From assembly GCF_000024105.1 (NCBI RefSeq), contig NC_013171.1:864501-928500 (forward strand): 64,000 nucleotides of DNA. Reading direction: 5' to 3'. The stretch's first letter is position 1; each line of letters opens with the position of its first letter. This document shows positions 32,302 to 50,466 of the stretch, in pieces. A program made the position numbers and the translations under genes. The DNA comes from Anaerococcus prevotii DSM 20548. GTDB taxonomy: Bacteria; Bacillota; Clostridia; Tissierellales; Peptoniphilaceae. Below the pieces are notes generated by a model that saw only the letters and a list, made by a program, of their open reading frames with translations, searched no databases and was not told the origin of the DNA.

Positions 32302-33390
32302 TTAGCTGTCTAAAAAGCTTACAAATTCTTCTGGAGTTTCTTTTTCTTCTTCTTCCATGATGTGGGAGTATATTTCTAACGTTATGGTTGGATCTGTATG
32401 TCCTAATCTTTCTTGGATGTACTTTATTGATTTTCCCATTCTTAAGAGTATCGTTGCATGCGTATGGCGGAAGCCGTGGACTGTAATTTTGTGTAAGTTG
32501 TTTTTTTCTATTATTCTATTTAATACTTTTAAGGGATATGATCTTGTTACTACTTTACCGCTTCTTTCGAAAATATACTTTTTGTTTGTTTCTTTTAATT
32601 TTATTAAGGTGTCAGTAGTTTCGGTATCTAAGGTTATTTTTCTTGTATTTCCGGTTTTTGTGGTGGATATGATTTGCTTGCCATTTTTGTCTCTTGAGAT
32701 GGATTTACTTATGGTTAAGGTGTTGGTTTTTGTGTTTAGGTCTGACCATTCTAAGGCCAGGGCTTCTCCTGATCTTATACCTGTATGGGATAGGAGTCTA
32801 AAAAAAGCGTAGGTTTGGAGTGGCTCTTTTTCTTTTGTAATTTCTAAAAAGGTTTTTAGTTCTTCGGGTGTGTAGTAATTTTTTTTGTTTATTGCTTGCA
32901 TATTAACTTTCTCCTTTGGGATTTTGATTTTATCGAAGGGATTTTTTTCTATTACGTGGAGGTCTTTGGCGTAATTTAGAACGGCTTTTGCGTAAATTTT
33001 TATATTACTTATATTCTTGTATCTTTTAGAGGCGTCAATTATAAAGGATTGGGCTTGTAGCTGGGTAAATTCTTTTAGAGGTATATTACCTATATAAGGT
33101 ATTATCTGATTCTTAAAAAGAGATTTTGTTTTGTATACAGTTTGCTCCTTTACGGTGGTTTGCCAGGTTTCTAGCCATAGTTCATAGGCATCATTAAAAG
33201 TCTTGAGTTTCGCTTCTGGTTTGGTTGGTGTTTGTATCCTTAGTTTGAGATAGGCATTTTCAGCTTCTTTTTTGCTTTTAAACCCTCTTCGATTAGTCCT
33301 TATTTCTTTACCAGTAATCGGATCTAAGCCTAAGTATATATTGAATCCATAATACGTTCTTTTTTCTTTTTTATAGTTGTAGATTTTCAT
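32302..33390 (-). CDS. int: Tyrosine-family phage integrase
   Basis: 362 residues. An N-terminal AP2-like arm-binding region (YGFNIYLGLDPITGKEI, about 12-55) precedes a SAM-like core-binding domain (60-160) and the catalytic domain. The catalytic residues are Arg in HTGIRSGEAL, HGFRHTHA (His and Arg), LGHTDP and the tyrosine in TLEIYSHI. It lies next to the RNA-gene fragment, so it should catalyse integration there. Confidence 0.95.
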   Translation of the reverse strand: MKIYNYKKEKRTYYGFNIYLGLDPITGKEIRTNRRGFKSKKEAENAYLKLRIQTPTKPEAKLKTFNDAYELWLETWQTTVKEQTVYKTKSLFKNQIIPYIGNIPLKEFTQLQAQSFIIDASKRYKNISNIKIYAKAVLNYAKDLHVIEKNPFDKIKIPKEKVNMQAINKKNYYTPEELKTFLEITKEKEPLQTYAFFRLLSHTGIRSGEALALEWSDLNTKTNTLTISKSISRDKNGKQIISTTKTGNTRKITLDTETTDTLIKLKETNKKYIFERSGKVVTRSYPLKVLNRIIEKNNLHKITVHGFRHTHATILLRMGKSIKYIQERLGHTDPTITLEIYSHIMEEEEKETPEEFVSFLDS

Positions 33391-35898: not shown

Positions 35899-36183
35899 AT
35901 GAAGATATTTTTTAAAAGGTCAATTGTAGAGTACGACGAAGTGGAAGTAGATATGCTTGATGTAGATTTTAACTACAATGGAGATATTTTAAAAGCTGTT
36001 AAAGATGAAGATTACGGAAATGCAAGAAAATTTAATGACTATCAGATTTTAGATTATCAACTAAGCGAGAAAGAATTAAATAAAAATATTTTGGAAAAGA
36101 ATTTTGAAGATATTTGCAAATATCGAAATATGAATGAATTAAATATGTGTCAAGAGCAAGAAGATGAGAGGATAAGATTTTGA
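35899..36183 (+). CDS. Early phage protein, second of a tandem related pair
   Basis: 94 residues related to the preceding protein in its N-terminal 40 residues, with a different Asn/Glu-rich C-terminus. AGGAGG precedes the ATG. It overlaps the TTG start of the Gp157 gene. Function unknown. Confidence 0.6.
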   Translation: MKIFFKRSIVEYDEVEVDMLDVDFNYNGDILKAVKDEDYGNARKFNDYQILDYQLSEKELNKNILEKNFEDICKYRNMNELNMCQEQEDERIRF

Positions 36184-36647
36184 AATTATACGAGATAGTA
36201 GAAGCTTACCAGAATTTAAGCGAATTAGAAGAAAGCGAAGATATAAAGAAGGCTTTAGATGTAATTAGTGATGAGTTTGATGTAAAGGCTGAAAATATAG
36301 TGAAAGTTATTAGAAATATGGAGGCTGACGAAAAGGCTTTGAGGGACGAAGAAATAAGGCTTGGTGATAAAAGGAGAGCTATAGGCACAAAAAAAGAGAA
36401 TCTTAAAGAATATCTATTTTCTAGTATGCGTGCAATCGGTAAGCCTAAAATGAAAGCGGGCATATTCAATATAAACATTCAAAAAAATCCTCAATCAATA
36501 AATATTATTGATGAGAATATTATACCAGATAAATATAAGATTGCCTCTTATAAGTTAGATAAAAAGCAATTAAAAGAAGATATAAAAGAAGGCTTAGAGA
36601 TAGAAGGTGCTGAACTAGTACAAACAGAAGGGATTAGGATAAGATGA
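36180..36647 (+). CDS. Siphovirus Gp157 family protein
   Basis: 155 residues with the Gp157 pattern: an N-terminal KLYEIVEAYQNL helix, a coiled-coil middle (EADEKALRDEEIRLGDKRRAI) and the C-terminal core VNIQKNP-x-S-I-N-I-like NINIQKNPQSINI with IPDKYK. The family is common in early regions next to ERF or RecT genes, and Gp157 of a streptococcal phage was linked to phage resistance. The start is TTG. Confidence 0.8.
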   Translation: MKLYEIVEAYQNLSELEESEDIKKALDVISDEFDVKAENIVKVIRNMEADEKALRDEEIRLGDKRRAIGTKKENLKEYLFSSMRAIGKPKMKAGIFNINIQKNPQSINIIDENIIPDKYKIASYKLDKKQLKEDIKEGLEIEGAELVQTEGIRIR

Positions 36648-37264
36648 GTGCTTACGAAAAATTAATGACAGTCCAGTGGAAATTAAAAGCTCCAAAAGGA
36701 CAAAGGAATAACTTTGGAAATTACAACTATAGATCATGTGAAGATATACTAGAAGCCGTTAAGCCTATCCTATCAGAAGTAGGGGCAGTAGTAGTTATAA
36801 ACGACAATGTTATTGAAGTAGGAGATAGAATTTATATACAAGCGATAGCAAGCTTTATAGACACTGAGGATGGAGGAAAGATTTCGACTAGTGCATACGC
36901 TAGAGAAGCGTTGAGCAAGAAAGGCATGGATGAATCCCAACTTACAGGGGCGACCTCCTCATATGCTCGTAAATACGCATTAAACGGGCTTTTCGCTATA
37001 GACGATAGTAAGGATATGGATTATCTAAACAAAGGCGACAAGGGTTCAAGCAATAGCCAAAAACGACCTAGTAAGAAGTTAAGTGCCGACGAATTATATA
37101 AGAAAGCTGGAGAGATAAGGGTCCAAGGTGGCCAGTATGAGTCGCTTACACTTTTGGAAGTAGAAGAAGATAGCCCTGATACGATTACAGAGTGGTTCAG
37201 GATATCAGACAAGGGAGAAAGAAAAGATATTTTAAAAGCGATTATAGATAAGAGGAAGCAGTAA
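36644..37264 (+). CDS. erf: ERF family single-strand annealing recombinase
   Basis: 206 residues. The ERF core is present: APKGQRNNFGNYNYRSCEDILEAVKP, then VGDRIYIQAIA and the family box GMDESQLTGATSSYARKYAL...AIDD. A Lys/Ser linker and a separate C-terminal domain follow. It anneals complementary single strands during phage recombination and works with the SSB and RusA encoded nearby. Confidence 0.88.
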   Translation: MSAYEKLMTVQWKLKAPKGQRNNFGNYNYRSCEDILEAVKPILSEVGAVVVINDNVIEVGDRIYIQAIASFIDTEDGGKISTSAYAREALSKKGMDESQLTGATSSYARKYALNGLFAIDDSKDMDYLNKGDKGSSNSQKRPSKKLSADELYKKAGEIRVQGGQYESLTLLEVEEDSPDTITEWFRISDKGERKDILKAIIDKRKQ

Positions 37265-43147: not shown

Positions 43148-43168
43148 GATGAAAGGATGGGCCAAATA

Positions 43169-44137
43169 ATGAGAAAAATAACAGAAACACATACAGGAAA
43201 AATTATATCTGATACAGATTTAAGCTTAGAATACCTATACGTTGGTGATTATGGAAAGGAAAACAACATAAAAGCTGACTTCTTAGGTTACAAAGAGAAA
43301 ATAGAAAGAGTAGAAAACATAGAGGTCGACTTGAACGACAAGTTGGTAGTAACTGTATCATCTCAAAAAGGATGTCCAATGAATTGCAATTTTTGTGATT
43401 GTCCCAAATTGGGATTTCATGGGAATTCTTCAGTCGCTGAATTAATTTCAGAAATATCAACCGGTATAGCCTTAAGTGGAGTAAAAGACGGACAAAGGCT
43501 TAATGTTCATTATGCTAGGATGGGAGAACCTACTTTTAACTTCAATGTTATTGAATCGGCAAAAATAGTAGGAGAGTTCGCAAATAAACATTTTAAAGAA
43601 TACCATCCTGTAGTATCAACAATGTTACCAAAAGATAATAAAAGACTTGAAAAGTTTTTACTAGAGTGGACATCACTTATGAAAAGCAACAATTGGAATG
43701 GTGGACTAGGATTGCAATTTTCAATTAATACACTATATGAAGAAGATAGGAATAAAGCATTTGATAATAAAAGTTTATCCCTTCAACAAATTAGTGATTT
43801 AGCTAAAAAATTACCAAATCCAGTAGGCAGAAAATATACACTAAACTTTGCTGTGACATCAGAAAGTGATCTTGATGTGAATAAGATGAACAAATATTTT
43901 GACAAAGAAAAGTTCGTTGTTAAAATAACCCCTATCCATGAAACAAAAAGAGCAATAGAAAACAAATATGAAATAGTAAAAGAATTTGATGTATACGAAA
44001 AGTTTGAAAAACCTTTGGTAGAAGATGGCTGGGACGTAATAGTTTTTATACCAAGTTTTGAAGAAGATAAGGATATGATAACGTGTGGTAATGCGTTGCT
44101 GGCAACAATGAAATTAGAAAACAGTAATGAAATTTAA
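43169..44137 (+). CDS. RlmN/Cfr-like radical SAM enzyme encoded by the phage
   Basis: 322 residues. The radical SAM cluster is CPMNCNFC (CxxxCxxC) after TVSSQKG, followed by GFHGNSSVAELISEI, RMGEPTFNFN, QFSINTLYEEDRNKA and C-terminal TCGNALL. These match RlmN/Cfr blocks (GC..C.FC, GF.RNL...EI, MGEP, SLHA, ACGQL). The methyl-carrying cysteine of CGQL is kept. The resolving cysteine seven residues before the first cluster cysteine is Thr. The N-terminal RNA-binding domain of RlmN is short or missing. The ATG at 43169 is preferred because AAAGG abuts the ATG at 43157. Confidence 0.75.
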   Translation: MRKITETHTGKIISDTDLSLEYLYVGDYGKENNIKADFLGYKEKIERVENIEVDLNDKLVVTVSSQKGCPMNCNFCDCPKLGFHGNSSVAELISEISTGIALSGVKDGQRLNVHYARMGEPTFNFNVIESAKIVGEFANKHFKEYHPVVSTMLPKDNKRLEKFLLEWTSLMKSNNWNGGLGLQFSINTLYEEDRNKAFDNKSLSLQQISDLAKKLPNPVGRKYTLNFAVTSESDLDVNKMNKYFDKEKFVVKITPIHETKRAIENKYEIVKEFDVYEKFEKPLVEDGWDVIVFIPSFEEDKDMITCGNALLATMKLENSNEI

Positions 44138-44398: not shown

Positions 44399-44587
44399 AT
44401 GAAAGTTAAAGAACTCATTGAATTTTTAGAACAATCTGATGAAGAAAGCTCAATTGAGCTAGACAACGTTAACTATTTAGAAAATTATGGATACGAATAT
44501 TACGATATAGAAAAAATATACTTTGAAAAAAGAAAATATGATAATGCTGTAGTTTTTAGCCTTAAAAAGGGGGATTGGGTTAGATGA
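44399..44587 (+). CDS. Hypothetical phage protein
   Basis: 62 acidic residues (KVKELIEFLEQSDEESSIEL), similar in feel to many small phage proteins with a KVKELIE-x-L start. Strong AAGGAGG site. It overlaps the MazG-like gene by four bases. Confidence 0.6.
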   Translation: MKVKELIEFLEQSDEESSIELDNVNYLENYGYEYYDIEKIYFEKRKYDNAVVFSLKKGDWVR

Positions 44588-44958
44588 ATTTTGGAGAATT
44601 ACAAGGGTTGGTTTTGAAATGGGCAGATGATAAGGATTTGCTACATTCTAAAAATGCTGAAAAACAATTCATGAAGTTTATAGAAGAGGTGTTTGAGTTT
44701 AAGACGGAATTTGATAATTGGGCCTTTTTAAGAGAGATGTGCGGTTTTGTCACAGACGAAGAACTAATGTATATGGGATCTAAAAGGCTCACTGTTTATA
44801 GCAAGCTTGAAATGGGAGATATCTTTGTAACTTTGATTATCCTTTGTAATCAGATTGGGATTGACCCTGTGGAGTGTCTTTCTATGGCGTATGAAAAAAT
44901 AAGCAAAAGGACTGGAAAGACTATAAATGGGCAATTTATCAAGAGTGAGGATTTATAA
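44584..44958 (+). CDS. MazG-like NTP pyrophosphohydrolase family protein
   Basis: 124 residues, all helical. KFIEEVFEFKTEF supplies the ExxE metal site, and LEMGDIFVTLIILCNQIGIDPVECLSMAYEKISKRTG matches the second half of the all-alpha NTP-pyrophosphatase fold (EMGD...N...AYEKI). Phage MazG-like enzymes trim unwanted nucleotides, including ppGpp or modified dNTPs. The substrate here is unknown. Confidence 0.75.
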   Translation: MNFGELQGLVLKWADDKDLLHSKNAEKQFMKFIEEVFEFKTEFDNWAFLREMCGFVTDEELMYMGSKRLTVYSKLEMGDIFVTLIILCNQIGIDPVECLSMAYEKISKRTGKTINGQFIKSEDL

Positions 44959-45505: not shown

Positions 45506-45519
45506 AAAGTAGGGGTGTT

Positions 45520-45570
45520 ATGGAAATATTATTTATGTTTGCATGGATTATGGTTTTGTTATTGTTGTAA
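45520..45570 (+). CDS. Possible 16-residue hydrophobic micropeptide
   Basis: MEILFMFAWIMVLLLL, preceded by AGGGGTG and ending one base before the ribosome site of the late regulator. It could be a leader peptide coupling translation into the regulator or a membrane peptide. Nothing besides composition and position supports it. Confidence 0.3.
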   Translation: MEILFMFAWIMVLLLL

Positions 45571-45580
45571 GGAGGTGGTT

Positions 45581-46078
45581 ATGATGGATTTTGAGAAGTT
45601 AAGGTCAGAGAATAAGAAGAAGGAAAGAATCTTTATTGCTAAGTCAAGACTTAGAACCTATGGGAAGGATCTGGTGATTAAGGAAGGCGTTGAGGCCAAG
45701 ATATCTATATTAGAGGATAGTTTATCAATAGGTGCCTCATGGTCCTCTCCTGATGCTACTAAGGGTGGAGGTAGCAAGCAGGAGGATAAGATGGTAGATG
45801 TCTTTGATGATATTGATAAGCTTAAGCGTACTCTTCTGCAGATTGATTTAGATACTAGGGCAATTGCTTTTGCCATTAAGGGACTTTCTAAAGAGGAAAT
45901 GTTTATCGTCAAGAATATGTGGATGGCAGAGACTAGAACGGAGGCTATGAGCTTTCAAGAGGTAGCGGATAGGCTACATTATAGCAAGAGTACAGTTAGA
46001 AGAATGAGTGATAAAGCGTTGCTTTACATATATAAGAGGCTGTATTTAATTGAGGGTCCTGATGTAGATGTTAGGTAG
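45581..46078 (+). CDS. Late transcription regulator (ArpU/RinA-like, sigma-70 region 4 HTH)
   Basis: 165 residues from ATG 45581 after AAGGAGGTGG. An N-terminal coiled region is followed by a C-terminal sigma-region-4-type helix-turn-helix: LSKEEMFIVKNMWM, MSFQEVADRLHYSKSTVRRMSDKALLYIYKRL. Size and location (last gene before terminase module) match the ArpU/RinA-like late regulators of Firmicute phages. Three 11-bp repeats begin three bases after its stop and are its likely target. Confidence 0.78.
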   Translation: MMDFEKLRSENKKKERIFIAKSRLRTYGKDLVIKEGVEAKISILEDSLSIGASWSSPDATKGGGSKQEDKMVDVFDDIDKLKRTLLQIDLDTRAIAFAIKGLSKEEMFIVKNMWMAETRTEAMSFQEVADRLHYSKSTVRRMSDKALLYIYKRLYLIEGPDVDVR

Positions 46079-46364: not shown

Positions 46365-46955
46365 ATGAAAGACAAAGAAATGAATATTGTATATAAAAAC
46401 GTAGATGAGTTAATCCCTTACGTTAATAATCCGAGGGATAATGCTGGAGCAGTGGATGCCGTGGCTAGTTCTATTAAGAACTTTGGATTTAAAGTGCCTA
46501 TAGTGATTGATAAGGGCAATGAGATTGTTACTGGCCATACTAGGTTACTTGCAGCTAAAAAACTTGATATGGATAAAGTTCCTGTTATTATAGCGGATGA
46601 TTTGAGCGAGGCGAAGGTTAAGGCTTTTAGGCTTGCTGATAATAAGGTCGGGGAACTTGCTGAATGGGATTGGTCTTTACTTGATACTGAGTTTGAAGAA
46701 TTAAAAGAGATGGACCTAGACTTTGATATGGAAGAGTTTGGGTTTATAGATAACGATGTGATAGATATGTCGTACATAAACGAACTAGACGAGAATGGGT
46801 TGTCTATGACTAAAGGGAAAAATGACCACTTCACAATGTCTTTTGTGTTCCCTGTTGAAAAAGAAGAACTTATTCATGAATATATAGAGGAAGTTAGTAA
46901 AGATAAAATAGTAGAAGATATTATATTAGCAGCGGAGGGGTTAAAGGATGCCTAA
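46365..46955 (+). CDS. ParB-like nuclease-domain protein
   Basis: 196 residues. The N-terminal ParB/Srx fold occupies about 6-110: IPYVNNPRDNAGAVDAVASSI, PIVIDKGNEIVTGHTRLLAAKKL with the GHTR motif at 57-60, then VPVIIADDL and AFRLADNKVGELAEWD. The C-terminal 85 residues are acidic and of unknown fold. In many phages this ParB type precedes or is fused to a DNA methyltransferase. Here a radical SAM gene follows with an eight-base overlap. It is the first gene of the late operon. Confidence 0.85.
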   Translation: MKDKEMNIVYKNVDELIPYVNNPRDNAGAVDAVASSIKNFGFKVPIVIDKGNEIVTGHTRLLAAKKLDMDKVPVIIADDLSEAKVKAFRLADNKVGELAEWDWSLLDTEFEELKEMDLDFDMEEFGFIDNDVIDMSYINELDENGLSMTKGKNDHFTMSFVFPVEKEELIHEYIEEVSKDKIVEDIILAAEGLKDA

Positions 46956-47973
46956 TTGCGGAAGTCAAGTTTTTTTGTGTGATTTACCTGTACGATTTGA
47001 TACATATGTGGGCTGTACACATGGGTGTCAATATTGTTTTGCGACTAAAAAACAGGATGGGTTTTATAACAATATAAAAAAAGGCGAAAGTGTAGACACT
47101 CTTAAAAAGTTTATAGAAGGTGAAAGAACTATAGAAACTAACTGGTGTGATTGGGATATACCCTTACATATTGGGGGAATGAGTGACCCCTTACAGCCTA
47201 TTGAGCGTAAAACTGGATATACTTATGAGTGTCTTGAATTATTGGCTAAAACTCAATATCCTTTTGTAATGTCTACTAAAGGGAGATTACTCGGTGATGA
47301 TAAATATATAGAAGTATTAAGCAGATGTAACTGTGTTATACAGGTGTCAATGGCTTGTGGCAGTTACGATGAAATAGAAAAAGGGTGCCCAACTTTTAAA
47401 GAAAGATTAGAAATAGTAAGTAAAATTTCTCCTAGAGTAAAAAGAGTTATTATAAGAATACAACCTTATATGAGGGAGTTTAAAGCCGAAATAATTAATA
47501 ATTTAAAGTTATTTAAAGAGGCTGGTGCATACGGGGTGATAATCGAAGGAATGAAATTTAATAAAAAGAAACCTGGATTAGTAAAAGTGGGCACCGACTT
47601 TACATATGCACTAGATGATATAAGGAATGATATATTAGAAATAAAAAAAGGATGCCACAGATTAGGTTTAAGGTGTTTTAGCGGTGAGAATAGGACTAGA
47701 GCATTAGGCGATAATTTATGTTGCTGTAGTATCGAAAACCTTGAAGGATTTAAAGAGAATACTTTTAACCTAAATCATATAATAAATGGAAAGAAGCCTG
47801 AATATACAGAAAACATGACTAAAAAGGGGACAGGAAGAGTTTTTACGGCTTTATATCAAAACACTATAAACGGAAAAAGATTGAAAAACGAAAGTTTTGT
47901 AGGGGAAATGATAAATACTGCTAAAAATAAACAAGACTTTATAGCGGAGATATTTGGGAAGAAAGGAAAATAA
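46948..47973 (+). CDS. Radical SAM protein (SPL/COG1533-like)
   Basis: 341 residues. The Fe-S motif CTHGCQYC has Cys at 23, 27 and 30. HIGGMSDPLQPIERKTGYTYECLELL (about 74-99) and FVMSTKG resemble the TDPYQP-x-E and TK motifs of spore-photoproduct-lyase-like enzymes. A C-terminal cysteine group at 236, 243 and 258-260 could hold an auxiliary cluster. The substrate is unknown. It sits between a ParB-like gene and a SAM synthetase gene whose ATG follows its stop directly, so local SAM supply is likely. Confidence 0.8.
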   Translation: MPNCGSQVFLCDLPVRFDTYVGCTHGCQYCFATKKQDGFYNNIKKGESVDTLKKFIEGERTIETNWCDWDIPLHIGGMSDPLQPIERKTGYTYECLELLAKTQYPFVMSTKGRLLGDDKYIEVLSRCNCVIQVSMACGSYDEIEKGCPTFKERLEIVSKISPRVKRVIIRIQPYMREFKAEIINNLKLFKEAGAYGVIIEGMKFNKKKPGLVKVGTDFTYALDDIRNDILEIKKGCHRLGLRCFSGENRTRALGDNLCCCSIENLEGFKENTFNLNHIINGKKPEYTENMTKKGTGRVFTALYQNTINGKRLKNESFVGEMINTAKNKQDFIAEIFGKKGK

Positions 47974-48759
47974 ATGTTTGAAAAAGTGAACCCTATGCAC
48001 CCTGATAAGATAGCTGATAGGATAGCAGGGGCAATAGTTGATTTAGGATATAAAATTGAAGATGAACCTAAAATAGCGGCAGAGGTTTCAGTTGGACACG
48101 GGGTATGCAATATTATTATTGAATCTTCGTGTTTTTTTGATTTTGGAGATATACAGAAAATAGTCAAGAGAATAGCTGGTATAGAAGATGTGGAGATTAT
48201 CCATGCTAGACAAGATAAGTACCTAGCTGAAAATCAAGTAGGGAAAGTTAGATGTGGAGATAATGGGATTTTTAAAGGTAGCCCTATAACAGATGAGCAG
48301 GAAAAACTAACATCTATAGCTAAAGAAATCTATAAAGAGTATGGGGCTGATGGCAAATATATTTTGGATGATGATAGACTCATTATTTGTCAATCAAAGG
48401 CTAAGACTGAAAGGCTACAAAGAAGATTTCCAACTGCTGATATCAACCCTATAGGGGATTGGTCGGGAGGCCTTGATGTGGATACAGGTTGCACTAATAG
48501 AAAATTAGGGTCAGACATGGGAGATGGTGTTACTGGTGGAGGTCTACATGGTAAAGACTTATCCAAGGCGGATGTATCAGTAAACATTTACGCTCATTTA
48601 AAGGCACAAGAGACAGGTGAAGAAGTGAAGCTATCGTGTGCTATTGGAGATGAAACAATCGATGGTAGACCCTATGAGGAGATAGTTCATATTGCTAGAA
48701 ATTATATTGATGTCATTGGAGGTTTTGAGAAGTTCGCTGAATGGGGACTGATTAGGTAG
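47974..48759 (+). CDS. Compact phage S-adenosylmethionine synthetase
   Basis: 261 residues against about 390 in the host family. Conserved blocks remain: HPDKIADRIAGAIVD (8-23), CGDNGIFKGSP (94-104), DTGCTNRK (170-177) and GGGLHGKDLSKAD (188-200), which bind ATP, metal and phosphate. The G of GHPDK is Met. Middle and C-terminal segments are trimmed. It should make SAM from methionine and ATP. Adjacent placement suggests it feeds the radical SAM protein. Confidence 0.82.
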   Translation: MFEKVNPMHPDKIADRIAGAIVDLGYKIEDEPKIAAEVSVGHGVCNIIIESSCFFDFGDIQKIVKRIAGIEDVEIIHARQDKYLAENQVGKVRCGDNGIFKGSPITDEQEKLTSIAKEIYKEYGADGKYILDDDRLIICQSKAKTERLQRRFPTADINPIGDWSGGLDVDTGCTNRKLGSDMGDGVTGGGLHGKDLSKADVSVNIYAHLKAQETGEEVKLSCAIGDETIDGRPYEEIVHIARNYIDVIGGFEKFAEWGLIR

Positions 48760-48767
48760 GTGATTAG

Positions 48768-49235
48768 TTGGCTAAGGGTAAGTACCAAGAATGGCTTGAG
48801 AAGGACAATTTAATAAAAATAGAGGCTTGGGCTAGGGATGGACTTACTGATGAGCAAATATCTAAGAATATGGGGATTGCTTATTCAACTTTAAGAGTTT
48901 GGAGGGATAAGTATCCGCCAATTTCGGCAGCCTTAAAAAGAGGGAAAGAAGTAGTTGATTTTGAGGTGGAAAATCAATTGTTAAAAAGAGCCCTTGGCTA
49001 TAATTATGATGAAGTTAAGACGGTTCAAAAAATGGTTGATGGTAAGAAACATGTTGAAAAAACAGTGATTACTAAGCATGTTATCCCAGACACCACAGCT
49101 CAGATTTTTTGGCTTAAAAATAGGAAGCCTGATGTATGGATGGATAGGAAGGCCAAAGAAGTTGAAGGCAAGCCTAATCAAGGCTTGGAAAGATATTTCG
49201 AATTGTTAGACGATAGGCTATTAAAAGATGAGTAA
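48768..49235 (+). CDS. terS: Terminase small subunit
   Basis: 155 residues from a TTG start with TAGGTGATT upstream. An N-terminal helix-turn-helix (DGLTDEQISKNMGIAYSTLRVWRDKYP) recognises phage DNA, a central helical oligomerisation segment follows (DFEVENQLLKRALGY), and the end reads PDTTAQIFWLKNRKPDVW, typical of the family. It overlaps the large subunit gene by eight bases. Confidence 0.88.
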   Translation: MAKGKYQEWLEKDNLIKIEAWARDGLTDEQISKNMGIAYSTLRVWRDKYPPISAALKRGKEVVDFEVENQLLKRALGYNYDEVKTVQKMVDGKKHVEKTVITKHVIPDTTAQIFWLKNRKPDVWMDRKAKEVEGKPNQGLERYFELLDDRLLKDE

Positions 49236-50466
49236 TATCGATAAAGTTTATACTAAAAAACAACAAGAAATATATAGGGATGTAGGTTCTAAAGATTGGT
49301 TTATACTAATTCTCCATGGAGCTAAGAGATCTGGTAAGACTCAATTAAATAATGATTTGTTTCTTAGGGAGCTTATCAGAGTTAAAAAGATTGCTAATAT
49401 GGAGAAGGTGGATAAGCCTCAATATATTTTAGCTGGCTTTTCTAAGTCTACTATTTATCAAAACGTGCTTATAGAATTGTCTTCTAAGTATGGGATAGAT
49501 TTCAAATTCGATAAGCTAGGCAATTTTACTATGCTAGGTGTTTATGTAGTCCAAGTTGGCCATGGTAAGATTGACGGATTAGGTCGTATACGTGGTATGA
49601 CTTCATACGGTGCTTATGTGAATGAGGCCTCACTTGCTAATGAGCTGGTTTTTGATGAAATAAGGTCTAGATGTTCAGGTAAGGGGGCAAGAATTATTTG
49701 TGATACTAACCCCGACAATCCCGAGCATTGGCTGAAAAAAGAGTACATCGATAATCCAACGGATAGGATTTTATCTTATAAGTTTACTATTTTCGACAAT
49801 ACCTTTCTTGATAAGAGATATTTACAATCGACTATTGACACTACACCTGATGGGATGTTTACCGAGCGAAACATATACGGGAATTGGGTTAGTGGCGAAG
49901 GTGTTGTATATAAAGGCTTTGACCCTAAGAGACATTATGTCAAGAGCTTAGATGGTATTAGATTTAGTAGTTACATAGCTGGTGTGGACTGGGGATATGG
50001 ACACTACGGATCTATTGTAGTATTTGGCATATCTAATGACGGTAAGTATTACATGATAGAAGAGCATGCTGAGCAGTATCAAGAAATAGATTTTTGGGTA
50101 GCTGTAGCGAAAGATATAGCTAATAGATATAAGGGCATAGTCTTTTATTGTGATTCGGCAAGGGTGGAACATATAGACAGGTTTAGTCGTGAGGGACTTG
50201 TTGCATATATGGCAGACAAGGCGGTTATTCCTGGAATAGAGGCGGTGTCTATTTTATATAAGACGGACAAGCTTTTTATATATGAGTATATAGCCAAGAG
50301 GTTTAAGGAAGAGATTTATTCTTATGTATGGGCTACTAATTACAGGTCAGATGAAGTCAAGAAGGAGTTTGACGATGTAATGGACTCCATGAGATATGCT
50401 TTATATAGTTATGAACAAGGTTTGGGAAGTATTAAGACCATGGATAGAAGTGTTTTAGGATTGTAG
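49228..50466 (+). CDS. terL: Terminase large subunit (PBSX family)
   Basis: 412 residues. The ATPase has Walker A GAKRSGKTQ near 30, GLGRIRGMT, a Walker B region with YVNEASL and the coupling motif CDTNPDNPEHWLKK. The nuclease domain carries aspartates in AGVDWGYGHYGS near 253, FYCDSARVEH and DDVMDSMRYALYSY. It packages DNA into the prohead. Confidence 0.95.
   Translation: MSNIDKVYTKKQQEIYRDVGSKDWFILILHGAKRSGKTQLNNDLFLRELIRVKKIANMEKVDKPQYILAGFSKSTIYQNVLIELSSKYGIDFKFDKLGNFTMLGVYVVQVGHGKIDGLGRIRGMTSYGAYVNEASLANELVFDEIRSRCSGKGARIICDTNPDNPEHWLKKEYIDNPTDRILSYKFTIFDNTFLDKRYLQSTIDTTPDGMFTERNIYGNWVSGEGVVYKGFDPKRHYVKSLDGIRFSSYIAGVDWGYGHYGSIVVFGISNDGKYYMIEEHAEQYQEIDFWVAVAKDIANRYKGIVFYCDSARVEHIDRFSREGLVAYMADKAVIPGIEAVSILYKTDKLFIYEYIAKRFKEEIYSYVWATNYRSDEVKKEFDDVMDSMRYALYSYEQGLGSIKTMDRSVLGL

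Follow-up and report, generated by a model that had tools for sequence, protein, structure and literature searches.

The 64,000-nucleotide stretch of Anaerococcus prevotii DSM 20548 DNA analysed here, which we refer to as the window, includes a prophage with genes for an integrase (32302-33390), an S24 repressor, and portal, Mu-F, capsid and minor-tail proteins. Between a regulator gene and the terminase genes of this prophage lie three coupled genes, whose products are a ParB-fold protein, a radical SAM protein (rSAM) and a compact SAM synthetase of MetK type; TerS, TerL, portal, Mu-F and capsid genes are found downstream. The features of this segment are:

45515..46078, + strand: regulator gene, Sigma70_r4-like (below the Pfam cut-off; phrog_36)
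46365..46955, + strand: ParB-fold partner, 196 aa (ParB_N PF02195; phrog_620)
46948..47973, + strand: radical SAM protein (rSAM), 341 aa, SPL-like predicted fold
47974..48759, + strand: compact phage MetK-like SAM synthetase, 261 aa (PF00438; phrog_1569)
48768..49235, + strand: TerS, terminase small subunit (phrog_309)
49228..50466, + strand: TerL, terminase large subunit

The coupling of the three genes noted in a preliminary description of this DNA is evident from their coordinates, with an overlap of 8 bp between the ParB and rSAM genes and a gap of 0 bases between those for rSAM and MetK. The same description placed them at the head of the late operon; their position just before the terminase genes agrees with this, and the expression side of the claim is drawn from that position. 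The regulator upstream of ParB (45515..46078) is likewise, from its position, a putative late activator. The open reading frames are evidently not chance occurrences, because relatives with 32-58% identity keep the frame, the order and the motifs. A contig in IMG/VR, to which seven proteins of the window match at 100%, starts, by arithmetic on the coordinates, at window position 32302, and no plasmid record has a place covering 80% of the region.

We note three further features of the prophage. A second phage radical SAM gene (43157-44137) is related to RlmN over residues 50-135 of its product (PDB E 1e-9; phrog_24834), which scores much below the RlmN cut-offs and may hold a methyl-carrying cysteine in its C-terminal TCGNAL stretch. 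The early region has a gene for a MazG-like pyrophosphatase (44584-44958), and at 36180-37264 a Gam-like end protection gene adjoins an Erf-like annealing gene.

The product of 46365..46955 has the ParB fold that had been assigned to it, scoring 28.4 bits against ParB_N (PF02195; cut-off 26.3) and E 2.5e-50 against phrog_620. In E. faecalis pBE65_2, the gene for a ParB–N6_N4_Mtase fusion follows that for an ArpU-family regulator, with portal and head genes beyond, and the ParB domain of this fusion shares 62% identity with residues 6-127 (122 aa) of the window protein. Identity to the ParB domains of methyltransferase fusions ranges from 40 to 62%, such that all belong to the same family. Five ParBs of loci L002-L005 that carry relatives of rSAM (two of them from L004) are only 18-32% identical to the window ParB, while the rSAMs of these loci are 48-50% identical to the window rSAM; one ParB from the contig of L018 is 48% identical.

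The MetK assignment also stands, with 34.5 bits against S-AdoMet_synt_N (PF00438; cut-off 33.1) and E 5e-62 against phrog_1569, as does the retention of its ATP and metal motifs: the protein aligns with SAM synthases over the HPDK and GGxxGKDxxKxD region, which we take to be the ATP- and metal-binding motifs of MetK. With its 261 aa it falls short of the full-length three-domain equivalog TIGR01034 (42.7 of 309.4 bits). Eight relatives, of which four come from rSAM loci and the other four from phage records, share 61-70% identity with it, and the host genome encodes a full MetK of its own (575 bits). Elsewhere in the window's genome, at G000:C2:691419-691637 (L172), a second MetK of phage type is broken by an internal stop; an ORF of 150 aa nearby resembles, by eye, a terminase small subunit, and this region is perhaps a prophage remnant.

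The radical SAM protein

The rSAM protein scores 29.0 bits against Radical_SAM (PF04055), just below the cut-off of 29.5, and carries the expected CxxxCxxC motif of the superfamily as C23/C27/C30. Among 55 aligned relatives, all <92% identical, these three positions are Cys in 54/55, 54/55 and 55/55 sequences. In alignment A3, L064 and L072 were dropped and L060 was started later; L072 is without its N-terminus. A second, C-terminal cysteine group had also been proposed, and this holds for C259 and C260 (Cys in 55/55), less well for C258 (26/55) and C236 (27/55), and fails for position 243, a column that is Phe in 45/55. Four conserved cysteines had been overlooked: C11 (54/55), C4 (46/55), C67 (46/55) and C127 (48/55).

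Relatives were sought with the patterns ETNWCDW + H[WI]GGMSD in viral_contigs and ETNWCDW + MP[NR]CGSQ[IV] in genome_contigs, and the apparent conservation of these motifs is inflated because the patterns select on them. A profile built from five relatives matched 90 viral_contigs stretches, of which 88 encode relatives; the best 80 of the 88, including the window's own contig, together with 5 loci that the same profile found in genome_contigs, make up the 85 rSAM loci of the neighbour counts below, a sample that is biased because it was drawn by conserved-motif patterns and takes the best 80 only. The family appears from these searches to be rare and phage-borne, since 2 of 398 genomes of the phylum, the window's own included, carry it at E<=1e-30. 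The best named NCBIfam relatives are the PA0069 and Rv2578c families, NF033668 (E 2e-13, residues 19-195, 49.8 of 360 bits) and NF038135 (E 6e-14, residues 18-203, 51.8 of 430 bits), with scores far under the cut-offs of both; we take these to be chromosomal families of obscure role.

A structure model from 53 sequences (pLDDT 93.1, pTM 0.92), which replaces a poor first model from five sequences (pLDDT 63) that was discarded, matches many solved radical SAM structures and has their barrel fold. All six entries for spore photoproduct lyase (SPL), a DNA-acting radical SAM enzyme, lead both fold comparisons, with E 6e-8 to 1.5e-7 and TM 0.53-0.54 in Foldseek and Z 17.5-17.8, rmsd 2.8-3.0 and 232-236 aligned residues in VIA. 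SuiB is next in the VIA list (Z 15.3), and peptide-, lipoyl- and RNA-acting enzymes (SuiB, Mmp10, LipA, RlmN) stand below SPL. Among predicted viral structures the best match is nameless (E 1.5e-10). When six SPLs of related genomes are aligned with rSAM by profile (probability 91.5, residues 21-174), the AATSDP of SPL is paired with the GGMSDP of rSAM. PDB sequence searches gave only chance matches with the single sequence and, with the profile, a best match of E 0.6, to SPL.

The preliminary description had brought up SPL-like enzymes, and the nearest solved fold to the modelled rSAM is indeed that of SPL; photoproduct repair in particular fares less well. There is no match to the SPL family PF20903, either in rSAM, for which a Pfam scan at E<=0.001 gives PF04055 alone, or in the window's own genome. 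In the profile alignment, read by eye, the hydrogen-donor column of SPL (presumably Cys140 of the B. subtilis-type enzyme in 4fhc-type entries) falls on Gly77. Gly77 alone does not separate rSAM from the SPLs, because the six aligned SPLs have Ala or Ser in this column and are also without Cys. The two share the radical SAM fold, a GC..HC.YCF-like cluster motif and an SDP..P.E-like motif, but they are 12% identical over ~233 residues with no family match, and rSAM has in addition the conserved C11, C259 and C260 and a ParB partner. VIA aligns residues 1-266 of the model with LipA 52-303, and by the layout that we take LipA to have, C4/C11 and C259/C260 would fall near its second-cluster site. 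A second cluster at C11, C259 and C260 is possible, proposed here from the conserved cysteines.

Gene neighbourhoods of rSAM and of phage MetK

A ParB gene ends <=60 nt before the rSAM start in 75 of the 81 loci with >=450 bp upstream (four loci with less are excluded from the count), the exceptions being L060, L071, L076, L077, L080 and L085. In all 75 pairs the two genes either overlap, by up to 25 nt, or are <=3 nt apart, and in 30 loci there are at least two ParB ORFs within 1.5 kb. TerL lies downstream of rSAM, at <=1.7 kb, in 68/85 loci. MetK is the next gene after rSAM in only 6/85, which rules out the trio, described earlier as a cassette, as a fixed system or conserved unit. Judged by gene order, the ParB–rSAM pair is the conserved unit and MetK is an optional accessory.

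A different accessory, absent from the window, is a PALP-fold PLP enzyme present in 25 of the 85 loci (an example is L013:6998-7843). It follows rSAM directly in 23 loci, as two ORFs in L033 and L035, and lies 306 nt after rSAM in L080 and upstream in L060. All of the 13 PALP proteins scanned match PF00291, the first of them below the curated cut-off, and the nearest solved relatives of the PALP profile are ACC deaminase and D-cysteine desulfhydrase. MetK and PALP occur together in none of the 85 loci. On a quick tree of 54 rSAM rows, with L072 dropped, the 4 rows with MetK require 4 changes, of which strong branches force at least 3, and PALP requires 9, at least 7 of them forced; compared with shuffles, PALP is more clustered on the tree and MetK is not.

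Phage MetK genes were sampled as the best 80 of 306 confirmed relatives, with flanks of up to 5 kb. The larger rSAM of the window has no high-scoring match in any of these 80 loci, so the MetK and rSAM samples are separate. N6/N4 methyltransferases, for the most part as fusions with ParB, are present in 70/80, and with further C5 seeds added an N6/N4 or C5 DNA methyltransferase is found in 74/80; the same seeds detect one in 2 of the 85 rSAM loci (L066 and L086; Fisher p 9e-37, with rows that are related rather than independent and a small seed set) and none on the 13-kb L001 stretch. These counts bear out two proposals of the preliminary description, that rSAM occupies a place where a methyltransferase is often found and that phage MetKs accompany SAM-using modification enzymes. 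Other DNA-modification genes of the types searched are absent from 83/85 of the larger-rSAM loci. Six of the best 80 MetK loci are without a methyltransferase (L098, L100, L113, L126, L138 and L160), of which L100, L138 and L160 end ~0.5-1.1 kb after MetK. We also note 24 phage records with a MetK of this family; in three of the four opened, a methyltransferase is next after MetK, and in the fourth (L011) only hypothetical proteins are annotated beside it. At L138:3019-4889 a phage MetK is directly followed by an unrelated radical SAM protein (phrog_9298).

Phages with TerL proteins 55-57% similar to that of the window differ in the slot before the terminase genes, which is empty in phiS10 and holds ParB–DUF4417 in Javan576, and may therefore be a general accessory slot; in phiFL1A, with a similar TerL, it holds unnamed genes. 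The Javan576 gene (L263:2542-3630) is annotated as a DNA modification methylase, and was not counted as one since Pfam gives ParB and DUF4417.

A smaller rSAM, with a cysteine apparently equivalent to C11 and a pair of adjacent cysteines (CC) towards the C-terminus, is carried by L007, L018 and L125. Loci of this sister family were taken as the best 80 of 213 found (L182-L261, flanks up to 4 kb; the L182 contig is that of L018). Among these 80, 48 have a DNA-modification-type gene, 55 have ParB and 41 have TerL. The modification-type genes include TGT-like genes in 14 loci (a label based on the phrog_887 match of a single member, which matches nothing in Pfam), a TET-associated glycosyltransferase in 13, a C5 methyltransferase in 12, PAPS reductase in 6 and an N6/N4 methyltransferase in 5. 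PAPS reductase may have a purpose other than DNA modification. Vut_1 transporter genes are also present in sister-family loci.

A putative DNA-modification module and its relation to known systems

We favour, with moderate confidence, the interpretation that the locus is a phage DNA-modification module in which rSAM is the catalytic partner of ParB, replacing the DNA methyltransferase often found there. ParB, homologous to the ParB domains of methyltransferase fusions, would hold or choose the DNA and bring rSAM to it; rSAM would cleave SAM reductively at the C23/C27/C30 cluster and alter a base by a radical step; the compact MetK from the next gene, by its family, would top up SAM; and, if these genes are expressed shortly ahead of those for packaging, the DNA would be marked before it is packaged. 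It is the context that suggests an action on DNA: as 83/85 loci are without another modification gene of the types searched, the argument is built on the ParB link, the position and the methyltransferase swap. That scarcity counts against the module, as do the 6/85 frequency of MetK, the 6 of the best 80 MetK loci without a methyltransferase, the variable slot in relatives, and the closeness of the SPL-like fold scores to those for SuiB, LipA and RlmN, which act on peptide, lipoyl and RNA substrates. A bolder proposal has, we think, a slim chance of being right: that these proteins make up an enzyme class, widespread in phages, that acts on native DNA by radical attack and uses a second iron-sulfur cluster (C11, C259, C260 and sometimes C4) to put sulfur or a methylthio group into the base, with MetK feeding SAM and, elsewhere, the adjoining D-cysteine-desulfhydrase/ACC-deaminase-like PALP feeding sulfide.

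An unlikely alternative is that rSAM acts on a protein, with the ParB partner or a packaging protein the likeliest, or on RNA, so that the ParB link is that of an enzyme and its substrate. The adjacency of ParB in 75/81 loci would suit this, as would the presence of SuiB, Mmp10, LipA and RlmN in the fold list below SPL. However, this kind of ParB also occurs fused to methyltransferases, and the partnered ParBs differ more from the window's (18-32% identity) than the rSAMs of the same loci do (48-50%), whereas a protein that served as their shared substrate would be expected to show higher conservation. It is quite unlikely that the genes are a loose accessory set in a permissive pre-terminase slot, in which MetK would provide SAM or change the SAM pools of the host and share no pathway with rSAM. 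MetK does behave in this way on the tree, with at least 3 changes, no more clustering than in shuffles and presence in 6/85 loci, and relatives have either nothing or ParB–DUF4417 in the slot; but a SAM user is nearly always near phage MetK, given the methyltransferases of 74 of the best 80 loci and the unrelated radical SAM protein of L138, and MetK and PALP never share any of the 85 loci. An SPL-like lyase that repairs bases damaged by UV or oxidation ahead of packaging is very unlikely: no solved fold is nearer than that of SPL, which aligns over residues 21-174, but PF20903 is not matched, the hydrogen-donor slot is Gly77 (as the six SPLs are also without Cys there, a weak point), and a repair enzyme would not be expected to have ParB and PLP proteins as partners or to trade places with methyltransferases.

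If the DNA-modification module is correctly read, phages would mark their DNA by radical chemistry just before packaging, with a common ParB–methyltransferase module in which the catalytic half has been exchanged; a function would be available for a family that counts at least 88 members in a single viral collection, and the occurrence of compact SAM synthetases in phages would be easier to explain.

Among known systems, Lee et al. 2022 reportedly describe a phage radical SAM enzyme in thymidine hypermodification, in phages such as M6, that acts on DNA bases. The thymidine hypermodification pathway starts from 5-hydroxymethyl-dU and uses kinases and PLP enzymes; none of the ten early prophage proteins scanned is of a thymidine-hypermodification type. 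Phage ParB–methyltransferase and MetK modules of Streptococcus, Gardnerella, Terrisporobacter and gut phages have the same ParB and MetK families as the window, whereas the window has a radical SAM protein in the catalytic place and no methyltransferase domain. One such module with a phage MetK is described for Streptococcus prophage phi1207.3, whose synthetase, at 353 residues, is longer than the window MetK (PMC4260502). The paper on carboxymethylcytosine in phages (Nat Commun 2025) reports that many contigs with its enzyme also encode ParBc proteins, and that ParBc is often found as a fusion with a DNA methyltransferase (PMC12783734). As here, ParBc thus lies near a phage DNA base modifier that replaces a plain methyltransferase, although this CmoX system uses carboxy-SAM and a C5-methyltransferase homologue, unlike the radical SAM protein here (PMC12783734). 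The open-licence literature searched showed no ParB–radical SAM phage system, and wider print may differ. The presence of this gene set where related phages often carry a DNA methyltransferase suggests a so far undescribed route for marking phage DNA. The ParB–rSAM pair with its exchangeable accessories is a new combination of known parts.
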